Shown here: positions 15,550-17,598 of the stretch, in pieces | Position numbering within the stretch: position 1 is the stretch's first letter | How the letters are laid out: every line of letters begins with the position of its first letter | From: an uncultured Clostridium sp. | Lineage (GTDB): Bacteria; Bacillota; Clostridia; TANB77; CAG-508 | Assembly (NCBI GenBank): GCA_948441945.1 | Contig: CAOJQV010000012.1 | Span: forward strand, 1-34,392 | DNA: 34,392 bases | Direction of reading: 5' to 3' | Translations under genes and position numbers: made by a program | Notes under the pieces: generated by a model | Seen by the model: the letters and a program-made list of their open reading frames with translations, nothing else | Databases searched by the model: none | What the model was told of the DNA's origin: nothing

Positions 15550-15578
15550 TTGACAAAATTTAAAAGTCTGTGTATAAT
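15550..15578 (+). promoter_or_regulatory. consensus promoter of antisense RNA 1
   Basis: TTGACA at 15550-15555 and TATAAT at 15573-15578, 17-bp spacer: a perfect sigma-A consensus with no protein-coding gene downstream. Confidence 0.85.
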
Positions 15579-15584
15579 ATAAAT

Positions 15585-15672
15585 AGAAAATGAGAAATCA
15601 CGAAAGTGATTGCCTTAAATAAATTGTAATAACCATTCACTCCGTCAAAAGCAGAATGGTTATTTTTTATTG
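15585..15672 (+). ncRNA. candidate antitoxin RNA 1
   Basis: About 85 nt from the consensus promoter to a hairpin (15631-15661, AACCATTC with GAATGGTT) followed by TTTTTT. It has a 5' hairpin AATCAC-GAAA-GTGATT. It runs towards and overlaps the 3' end of the convergent 38-aa toxin-like gene and shares its terminator. A segment (AAAG.TGATT..CC) is partly complementary to the first codons of that gene. Architecture as in par/RNAII. Not seen as transcript; inferred from promoter and terminator. Confidence 0.6.
15631..15670. terminator. shared bidirectional terminator of TA-like locus 1
   Basis: Stem AACCATTC/GAATGGTT with loop containing CTCCGTCAAAA. It has a T run on the plus side and a weaker one on the minus side. 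A second hairpin, AATCAC/GTGATT at 15597-15612, followed by a T-rich stretch on the minus strand, could end the minus transcript later. Confidence 0.7.
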
Positions 15673-15783
15673 TTTATGTAGTAGCCAACAAATGATGCCT
15701 AACAAAACAATGTTTATGATAGCTAGTCCTACTATTCCATACAATAATAGGTAAGTAATTATTATTAAAGCTGATTCTACCAT
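15667..15783 (-). CDS. 38-aa hydrophobic peptide, type I toxin-like
   Basis: 38 aa. One membrane helix fills most of the peptide: after MVESAL it runs through IIITYLLLYGIVGLAIINIV and LLGIICWLL, and ends HKQ. The start has a strong GGAGGTGG site nine bases upstream. Size, single helix, basic end, strong ribosome site, terminator loop and a convergent promoter for an antisense RNA together are the features of type I toxins such as TxpA and Fst. The leader carries GCCACCT (15860-15854), which can pair with AGGTGG of the ribosome site (15795-15790) and hide it, another trait of such toxins. A possible promoter lies near 15893-15925. No sequence family is claimed. Confidence 0.65.
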   Translation of the reverse strand: MVESALIIITYLLLYGIVGLAIINIVLLGIICWLLHKQ

Positions 15784-15789
15784 ATAGCA

Positions 15790-15860
15790 CCACCTCCATA
15801 TATCAGTCTTACAACTAAAAGTCGTAGAGAATTATGTATAAACAAGTTGTCAAAGGTGGC
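15790..15860 (-). promoter_or_regulatory. leader element hiding the toxin 1 ribosome binding site
   Basis: CCACCT at 15859-15854 is complementary to AGGTGG at 15795-15790, with G-U pairs extending both ends. In the mRNA this would close a stem over the Shine-Dalgarno sequence. Confidence 0.5.
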
Positions 15861-16020
15861 AACACACTCCGCTTATTCTCATTTTCATAAATAACTATAT
15901 AACATTTATCAGGAAAATACAAGCGAACAAAACAAAATTTTGCATATTTCTACATTTAAGTAAAGTAATAAATTTAATTTACTAAGTATGCTATCAAAAA
16001 ATCTAAATAAAGAGCAATAG

Positions 16021-16455: not shown

Positions 16456-16484
16456 TTGACAAATTAATAAAAAGATGTTATTAT
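16456..16484 (+). promoter_or_regulatory. promoter of antisense RNA 2
   Basis: TTGACA at 16456-16461 and TATTAT at 16479-16484 with a 17-bp spacer; no protein gene follows. Confidence 0.8.
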
Positions 16485-16490
16485 ATAGTT

Positions 16491-16576
16491 ACATTGAGAA
16501 ATGTGTCGTTGGTCGTAACGAAACATATATGTAGCTGGTATGTGTAACCGTAAACAATACACATATCTTTTTTTTT
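16491..16576 (+). ncRNA. candidate antitoxin RNA 2
   Basis: About 85 nt, from the promoter at 16456 to a strong terminator (TATGTGTA 16539-16546, TACACATA 16558-16565, then TC and nine T). Bases 16511-16535 repeat 16725-16749, the start region of the convergent 33-aa gene, at 20 of 25 positions. The RNA could therefore pair with that mRNA over about 22 of 25 positions counting two G-U pairs, covering the edge of the ribosome site, the start codon and codons 2-6. The seed GGTCGT lies in the loop of a CGTT/AACG hairpin. The terminator loop carries CCGTAAA (16548-16554), complementary to the loop of the mRNA's own terminator. Confidence 0.7.
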
Positions 16577-16579
16577 GCT

Positions 16580-16617
16580 CAAAAATAAAAGCAAGGTAGC
16601 TCCGTAAAAACTACCTC
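16580..16617 (-). terminator. terminator of the 33-aa gene
   Basis: On the minus strand AGGTAG and CTACCT enclose TTTTTACGGAG, followed by TGCTTTTATTTTT. The loop (16602-16608 plus strand CCGTAAA) matches the loop of the RNA 2 terminator. Confidence 0.75.
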
Positions 16618-16638
16618 ACTATCGACTATGTATGTTAC

Positions 16639-16740
16639 CTAGTCTTTGTCATTCTTTTCATCTTCTCTTAATTGGAAGTTCTTTTCTTTCTCAGCAAGTA
16701 ACATTTCAATTAATCGTAAGATAAGGTCGTAACTAGACAT
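16639..16740 (-). CDS. 33-aa peptide, par/Fst-like locus
   Basis: 33 aa: an amphipathic half (MSSYDLILRLIEMLLAEKEK) and a very charged tail (LREDEKNDKD). The ribosome site AAAGGGGG is strong and eight bases from the ATG. The size equals Fst and the tail is acidic/charged like Fst, but the helix holds R and E and is not a clean membrane span, so toxin action is less sure than the regulatory layout. A promoter TTGTAA-N17-TATAGT lies about 65-100 bp upstream. GTAACCTTTT at the 5' end of the leader (16801-16792) can pair with AGGGGGTTAC of the ribosome site. The convergent RNA 2 has antisense repeats to the start region. Confidence 0.6.
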   Translation of the reverse strand: MSSYDLILRLIEMLLAEKEKNFQLREDEKNDKD

Positions 16741-16749
16741 ACAAGTAAC
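16725..16749. repeat. direct repeat shared with antisense RNA 2
   Basis: 20 of 25 bases identical to 16511-16535 on the same strand, the first nine (GGTCGTAAC) without a mismatch. As the two transcripts run in opposite directions, the repeat gives them complementarity, as DRa/DRb do in par of pAD1. Confidence 0.75.
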
Positions 16750-16801
16750 CCCCTTTCCACCCTTTAGCAAAGGATTACCTTTCTGTCAATGAAAAGGTTA
16801 C
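16745..16801 (-). promoter_or_regulatory. leader element hiding the 33-aa gene ribosome site
   Basis: The leader 5' end (16801-16792, GTAACCTTTT) is complementary, with G-U pairs, to AGGGGGTTAC at 16754-16745, which is the ribosome binding site. Confidence 0.5.
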
Positions 16802-16882
16802 TATCTACTATACAACAAATTCTATTATTTTACAATGAACAAATGAAAATTCTACAAGAATTCTAAAAAATCATACACCACA

Positions 16883-17598
16883 TTATATGTTTATCAAATT
16901 ATTTAATATACTAATCAATATTTCTTGTAGTTCTATAGCTTTTGTTTTATCTAATTTTTCTAATAATATTTTATTGTTTGAAATAATTCTAATGCCTATA
17001 CAAGGAATATTAAACTTATTACATACTGAATATGTTCTATACTTTCCATATCTTCACTATAGTTTTTGAATATATTATTTATCCAATCTATTCTATCTAT
17101 TTCTCTATTGAATACATCTCCACTTCCTAATATTCCCCTATATATTTTATTTGAACAATTTAGTTTTAGGATTTCTTCAATAATATTAACTAATTTTAAA
17201 TCTGAATTTTGTATATCTTTTGCACGTTTATTTGGCTCCCATTCAAATGGATTCGAACCTTTTCCTCTATCTTTGCTTGGCATTTTATATGCATTAATAT
17301 TACAACACTTTTCTCCTACAATAATGTCTCCTATATGTAAATCAGTTCTATGTGCTCCTGCAATACCTTGATTTATAACTATATTGGGATGAAAATTTAT
17401 AATTCCAATAGTAGTCGCCATAGTTGAATTTATTGTTCCTACTAATGTTTTTGATATTACTACTTCTATATTATTAATACTTCCTTCATAAAATTGATAT
17501 CCTGCTATTGTTCTATCTTTTCTATTTTTTAGTTTACTTAATAGACATTCTATTTCAATATCCATTGCCCCTTGTATTAAAACCACTTTATCTTTCAA
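16883..17598 (-). pseudogene. 5'-methylthioadenosine/S-adenosylhomocysteine nucleosidase-like, frameshifted
   Basis: Read through, about 238 aa, the usual size of this nucleoside phosphorylase-fold family, which splits adenine from MTA and SAH. The first frame (17598-16996) has the start VVLIQGAMDIEIECLLSKLK, VINQGIAGAHR and EDMES, the last holding the ribose-binding glutamate. After ESIE one base is missing near 17036: GAACATATT where GAAACATATT would read TYSVCNKFNIPCIGIRIISN and on to LINI-stop at 16883. The C-terminal helix is therefore out of frame. The gene lies between TA-like locus 2 and a 27-bp repeat. Confidence 0.8.

Follow-up and report, generated by a model that had tools for sequence, protein, structure and literature searches.

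A probable par-like type I toxin-antitoxin cassette with two antisense repeats and a non-Fst peptide in an uncultured Clostridium

The window, by which we mean the whole 34,392-nucleotide stretch of DNA that was analysed, comes from the genome of a gut bacterium, 1.4 Mb in size and 79.5% complete, and it contains two small convergent genes whose arrangement raises the question of whether one encodes an antisense RNA that silences the other and, if so, what kind of system the two form. The initial annotation had described a par/Fst-like toxin-antitoxin locus in which a small RNA (sRNA) repeats the start-codon region of a short ORF, and it overlooked a second repeat, located in the terminator loops, as well as the fact that relatives conserve the two repeats. 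On the evidence presented here, the locus is quite probably a type I toxin-antitoxin cassette, self-contained within ~350 bp, with par-like logic, a two-part RNA address and a peptide that is not of the Fst type.

Layout and predicted folding of the cassette

The cassette consists of a plus-strand sRNA and a minus-strand mRNA that converge within ~350 bp, with the following features (coordinates rechecked).

16807-16835, minus: mRNA promoter, TTGTAA-17-TATAGT (pattern scan, 9 of 12, weak alone)
Near 16800, minus: probable start of the mRNA
16778-16799, minus: stem region of the 5' UTR; the 5' end (CCUUUUC..) pairs with the Shine-Dalgarno region in the predicted fold
16749-16758, minus: strong Shine-Dalgarno sequence, GGAAAGGGGG
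16725-16749, minus: mRNA copy of the start repeat R1, which begins at the edge of the Shine-Dalgarno sequence and reaches into codon 6
16639-16740, minus: ORF of the putative toxin, 33 aa, MSSYDLILRLIEMLLAEKEKNFQLREDEKNDKD
16590-16620, minus: T1, the mRNA's own terminator
16602-16608, minus: mRNA copy of the loop repeat R2 (TTTACGG), within T1
16456-16484, plus: promoter of the putative antitoxin sRNA, TTGACA-17-TATTAT with a TG before the -10 (pattern scan, 11 of 12)
16491-16576, plus: putative antitoxin sRNA, ~86 nt, its start placed from the promoter
16501-16526, plus: hairpin 1 of the sRNA (prediction)
16511-16535, plus: start repeat R1 in the sRNA
16537-16576, plus: T2, the sRNA terminator with its U tail (stem-loop 16537-16567)
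16548-16554, plus: sRNA copy of the loop repeat R2 (CCGTAAA), within T2

The coordinates originally given for the sRNA promoter, for the terminator ending at 16576 and for the 33-aa minus-strand ORF all check out. The sRNA promoter is the best of 15 promoter-like sites across 15.8-17.7 kb, but since 15.9 such sites are expected by chance, the promoter scan alone proves nothing. In relatives, a TTGACA-like promoter expression finds a match in 71 of 80 loci. Both RNAs are putative transcripts, predicted from promoter and terminator patterns.

Folded alone, the sRNA is not unusually stable (z of -1.14, with 28 of 200 shuffles equally stable). In its hairpin 1 a 4-nt apical loop is predicted to carry some of the sequence complementary to codons 3-6, a segment with a mean unpaired probability of 0.46. 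Among 68 sRNAs, the predicted apical loop takes in 3 nt or more of this complementary sequence in 61, which is a raw count; the 68 were taken from 80 sRNAs, the remainder being duplicates or poor matches. The mRNA of the window is predicted to pair its 5' end with the Shine-Dalgarno region, and RNAalifold on the relatives gave a weak consensus structure for the 5' UTR. Between the stop codon and the terminator, ACATAGTCG is conserved in 31 of 85 loci, or 54 with variants, and lies at 16623-16631 in the window; no consistent pairing partner was found for this element.

Further upstream, TGTTCGCTTGTTTTT-like sites precede the mRNA promoter at 38 of the 86 loci, in most cases at a distance of 95-100 nt from the start. 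A LexA box was suspected because one copy of the site in the window's own genome precedes a gene (L252) which we take to resemble an SbcD/YhaO-type nuclease. SOS/LexA control was rejected, as no TGTTCGCTTGT site with up to 2 mismatches lies within 250 nt upstream of 14 lexA and 13 recA genes; many recA upstream regions carry, by eye, CAAACAAAAGTTC-like sites instead. The TGTTCGCTTGT-like sites precede many toxin promoters of both families as well as L252, and one lies at 15915-15929 of the window; the window's first-family cassette is without such a site.

A second type I-like locus is found ~700 bp from the cassette, at 15550-15929. It consists of a hydrophobic 38-aa ORF (MVESALIIITYLLLYGIVGLAIINIVLLGIICWLLHKQ, 15783-15667, minus strand), which has a long 5' UTR and no match in Pfam, and a perfect TTGACA-17-TATAAT promoter (15550-15578, plus strand) that would drive a convergent RNA overlapping the mRNA. 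GAAAATGAGAA stands at the beginning of both RNAs, so the ends of the mRNA can fold back, and because the two RNAs overlap their duplex energy is trivial. Homologues of the second locus occur in 28 of 97 genus genomes, with an ORF-less remnant in L263.

Two repeats and their co-variation across loci

The R1 segments of the two RNAs in the window are identical at 20 of 25 positions, as originally noted; when both RNAs were dinucleotide-shuffled 2000 times, the best match was 19 and none reached 20. The RNA-RNA pairing that had been expected is also predicted: the duplex over the initiation region has an energy of -34.3 kcal/mol, against a shuffled mean of -16.3 kcal/mol, and none of 1000 shuffles was as good. 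Matched changes in relatives had been set beforehand as the test of this pairing, and such changes were found at R1, at R2 and between paralogs.

For R1, the sRNAs and mRNAs of 31 representative cassettes (from 85 loci, 75% identity filter) were ranked against each other. The own downstream partner was the best match in 24 of them and ranked 2, 2, 2, 2, 3, 6 and 31 in the other seven, the summed own score being 480.5 compared with at most 334 in 10000 permutations, a test that is inflated by relatedness. The start region was the best-matching stretch of the own mRNA in 26 of the 31. Ranking by the duplex energy of the whole RNAs, for 30 of 80 loci, is noisier than the R1 match and placed the own partner first in only 21 of 30. 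Within single genomes the predicted pairing is specific: among the paralogs sampled, from nine genomes, 26 of 27 mRNAs are predicted to pair best with the cognate sRNA (mean of -32.6 kcal/mol for cognate and -16.6 kcal/mol for non-cognate pairs). The sole exception is L088, whose loop also equals that of its paralog L100.

The terminator loops of the window repeat over 7 nt on T1 and T2 stems that are unrelated to each other. After exclusion of 3 of 88 distinct loci with less than 200 nt of downstream sequence, the two loops of a locus agreed at R2 over 6 nt or more in 45 of the 53 distinct own pairs, compared with 130 of 2756 swapped pairs, and with one entry per T1 loop in 39 of 45 (permutation sums of 289 against at most 166, again inflated by relatedness). 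The match is shorter than 6 nt in eight of the 84 loci for which both terminators were called (L004, L073, L019, L081, L098, L084, L113 and L110). Close relatives carry changed loops on largely constant stems, with CTACCG, CTACCAC, CTACCAT and CTGTCGC occurring in the MNN(A/S)(D/E)LVW group. Because the terminators are separate and the loops alone repeat, complementarity at both sites would be kept by co-evolution and not by shared DNA. By eye, L019 and both L081 cassettes apparently possess a single symmetrical terminator with the start repeat after it, and shared- and separate-terminator designs may thus coexist inside one peptide family. In L084 a palindrome-bearing insert lies between both terminators, with the sRNA still in place.

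Short repeats are common in A+T-rich sequence and the promoter scan is at chance level, and one could therefore regard the repeat as a coincidence, or as a DNA-level repeat without RNA function. The shuffling result and the co-variation of two separate repeats over dozens of loci leave this explanation with a negligible chance of being right.

The locus thus combines the complementarity of an antisense RNA to a small-protein mRNA, which is characteristic of type I systems, with the convergent promoters and start-site direct repeats of Fst/par loci. The par-like logic read from the locus at the outset stands as regards the convergent RNAs and the co-varying antisense repeat over the start codon, but the RNAs would make two contacts and not one. 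We propose that the minus strand gives the mRNA of a 33-aa helical putative toxin and the plus strand a convergent antitoxin sRNA of ~86 nt with two hairpins. The sRNA terminator loop would first kiss the loop of the mRNA's own terminator through R2, and hairpin 1 and the linker would then pair through R1 with the start-codon region, from the Shine-Dalgarno edge into codon 6, and so block ribosome binding; the kissing as first step and the translational block are both suggested by analogy with par. Since the two short matches would form a private address, paralogous cassettes in one genome are not expected to cross-silence. With dozens of distinct alleles at hand, the rules of loop-loop and start-codon recognition are directly testable, and so is the divergence of antisense specificity after duplication.

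The peptide family, its distribution and its solitary antitoxins

The majority consensus of the peptide family is MxxxDLILRLVExLLxEKEK, with lengths of 27-46 aa. As judged from substitutions, the peptide is under purifying selection: its own frame has a pN/pS of 0.44, and the two alternative frames have 0.62 and 1.00 (from 158 pairs that are not independent). Structure prediction gives the window peptide a single helix over residues 3-32 (mean pLDDT of 88.9), which is amphipathic (moment of 0.48) and has a net charge of -3. Most known type I toxins are unlike such a peptide, and the ZorO toxin is unrelated to it. The initial description of a peptide that is not a clean membrane helix therefore suits the window copy, but other branches are hydrophobic, for example MTSYELIWRLIVLLLLSNNDNDHSNKD from L030, and the sister peptides are short. 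A further branch, M(S/T)IGD(A/V)(I/L)L.LVD.LL, was reached via the sRNA and not via the peptide.

That the peptide resembles no known toxin is borne out: five family members gave no match beyond chance in Pfam, NCBIfam or PHROG (Pfam E of 0.11, PHROG E of 0.097), and a sixth and seventh gave none in Pfam. Rfam covariance models found only tRNAs in the window at the gathering score, and a further Rfam search returned two chance snoRNA matches (E of 3-4.5) and no type I antitoxin family. A full-text literature search for six peptide motifs, and a search of titles and abstract openings for a description of the family, likewise gave no match within literature that included few subscription papers.

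With the single peptide sequence as query, 33 of 94 genomes have a match at E<=1, the weakest of them doubtful, whereas a peptide profile detects 98 of 146 genomes of the genus at E<=0.05. Across the order, homologues occur at E<=0.001 in 169 of 385 genomes and 26 of 48 genera, all in the window's family, and in a class-wide sample the 4 of 391 genomes with a match are all of the window's genus. The sRNA-terminator pattern is present in at least 118 stretches of public genomes; among the 80 listed, nearly all have titles that name uncultured Clostridia, Clostridium or the like, and a few are palindromes from other bacteria that match by chance. The tally of this pattern gave 86 places in 80 loci, with the peptide at 50 and some palindromic chance matches in other bacteria among them. 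One genome (G257) has seven profile matches, and the window's own genome has a second, hydrophobic cassette (L074, G000:C7). Another DNA match in that genome, L002, was discarded as being, by eye, only a promoter-like A+T-rich stretch and not a cassette.

In some pairs the identity is limited to the cassette. L012 and L039 share only a single stretch of 385-463 bp with L010, L011, L013 and each other, which runs approximately from promoter to promoter and is 92.4-96.1% identical. L010 and L011 are syntenic over 2 kb, L037 and L038 share further, more diverged stretches with L039 in their flanks, and the flanks of L007 and L008 also have more diverged stretches in common, the cassettes of these two being 96.4% identical along 500 bp.

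Loci with an sRNA but no intact toxin are frequent in these genomes. An sRNA covariance model gave 67 matches in 33 of 58 genomes, which is an undercount since the model was built from GTATGTG-like sRNAs, with the T2 hairpin as its only structure, and stricter filters were applied. Thirty-six of the matches adjoin a family peptide, as judged from coordinates alone, among them L021, from which the 5' UTR and the ribosome site are gone. Of the remaining 31, an intact divergent toxin whose start repeat fits accompanies 8, the end of a contig cuts off 2, and no intact toxin is present beside the other 21. Some of these 21 retain the mRNA promoter, T1 or the C-terminal tail of the toxin, 17 retain a TTGACA-like -35 and many retain the loops, whereas L346 and L361 appear decayed. 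L336 (G005:C6:32100-33300) is a second sRNA that follows a complete cassette, so that two sRNAs stand in tandem behind one toxin and one of them has no partner. Conversely, only 4 of 85 toxin loci are without a nearby sRNA: L073; L004, disrupted past T1, apparently by an insertion; L110, which has also lost its ribosome site; and L113, a case that speaks against the model, since by eye its promoter, ribosome site and ORF are all retained. As 21/67 and 4/85 come from different samples, their ratio is indicative only; for zor/orz the same antitoxin-only asymmetry has been reported (PMC11264685).

These data bear on whether the peptide is harmful at all. The pairing could be real and the sRNA could set the dose of a non-toxic regulatory or signalling peptide, a view that draws on the amphipathic, charged character of the window copy and its clade, the lack of a match to any toxin family and the intact-looking L113 despite its loss of the sRNA. 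A harmful gene fits better with the patchy, multicopy presence of the family, the private address of each paralog, the cassette-limited identity of some pairs and the excess of toxin-less sRNAs over sRNA-less toxins, and the sister peptides are short and hydrophobic; we consider the non-toxic alternative unlikely. The excess of toxin-less sRNAs gives indirect support to a harmful peptide neutralised by RNA, and we infer that the peptide is toxic.

If the mechanism is as proposed, its selected function could still lie in defence by abortive infection, in anti-addiction or in stabilising mobile DNA, and not in self-maintenance of the cassette. The cassettes are chromosomal and multicopy, many toxin-less sRNAs keep their loops and a promoter-like -35, and, among ORF clusters within 3 kb of 55 loci (one member of each identified with Pfam), a serine-recombinase ORF is found at 5 loci and an integrase-like ORF at 4. 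Against this, the neighbour cluster with the most members (at 8 of 55 loci) encodes the iron transporter FeoB, no defence gene, and single-sequence or exact-pattern queries found no copy in phage and plasmid collections or viral contigs. Specifically, the phage and plasmid collections gave no DNA match and no protein match with the window peptide as single-sequence queries, viral contigs held no exact T2 or peptide pattern, and the peptide was absent from the 80 of 119 viral stretches with the ribosome-site pattern that were scanned (best E of 0.22); a phage or plasmid origin was rejected on these results. Such a function for the cassette is a minority possibility, to which we give somewhat more weight than to a harmless peptide. 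A PF01048 phosphorylase-superfamily gene adjoins the window cassette (16996-17598; the profile match ends at 176 of 233, so it is perhaps shortened) and another lies near the L116 cassette (L116:3636-4388), the cluster accounting for 3 of 55 loci.

More broadly, the type I cassettes may form a family-wide set of autonomous, relocating units with two independently evolving RNA addresses, which would amount to orthogonal antisense pairs and a pool of solitary antitoxins that possibly immunises genomes against incoming cassettes; we offer this as a tentative picture whose chances we place a little short of even. The toxin-less sRNAs make a case for RNA anti-addiction.

Comparison with known systems

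Several known systems share parts of this design. The type I modules of Clostridioides difficile (CD2517.1-RCd8 and others) likewise pair a convergent small ORF with an antisense RNA and occur many times per genome, but their toxin and antitoxin genes overlap and their toxins, of 34-59 aa, have a transmembrane segment; the two-repeat address is not described for them in the parts of PMC6563280 that we draw on. TxpA/RatA of Bacillus subtilis is also a convergent type I pair, but, as outlined in PMC4147584, it has an extensive 3' overlap and its antitoxin stimulates degradation of the mRNA. zorO-orzO of E. coli resembles the cassette in its short trans-like complementarity, its discrimination between paralogs and its common antitoxin-only loci (excerpts of PMC3919570 and PMC11264685), and differs in having divergent genes and a single 18-nt pairing region (PMC3919570).

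The closest likeness is to par of pAD1 (RNA I/RNA II, Fst) and chromosomal par loci, as presented in the sections of PMC7472228 consulted. These also have a convergent mRNA and small antitoxin RNA, a 33-aa peptide, repeats that pair over the start codon and Shine-Dalgarno sequence, a terminator-loop contact, specificity attributed to the repeat sequence and a 5'-end structure that hides the ribosome site, which in the cassette is predicted only. In par the contact begins with kissing of the terminator loops, after which the repeats mask the initiation site (PMC7472228). A diverged true member of the Fst/par family would account for the shared logic, in which peptide length, convergent transcription, the repeat at the start site and the contact between terminator loops all agree (PMC7472228), and for the apparently single bidirectional terminator of the L019/L081 subgroup. 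Such membership is very improbable given that five peptides have no Pfam or NCBIfam match, bar the chance Pfam value, and none in PHROG beyond its comparable E value, that no relevant Rfam match was found, that the window peptide contains neither P nor G and hence no PXXXG motif, and that the terminators are separate in most members.

The par/Fst-like label therefore holds for the logic and not for the homology. Unlike par, the cassette encodes a peptide without detectable Fst homology or the PXXXG(C) motif, its T1 (16590-16620) and T2 (16537-16567) are separate with no shared bidirectional terminator, and the sequence complementary to codons 3-6 tends to lie in a loop of its hairpin 1. As the peptide has no family match and there are usually two separate terminators, we place the cassette outside the Fst family, as an extension of the par-type design to peptides whose family is absent from the libraries searched, among Clostridia of an uncultured family.
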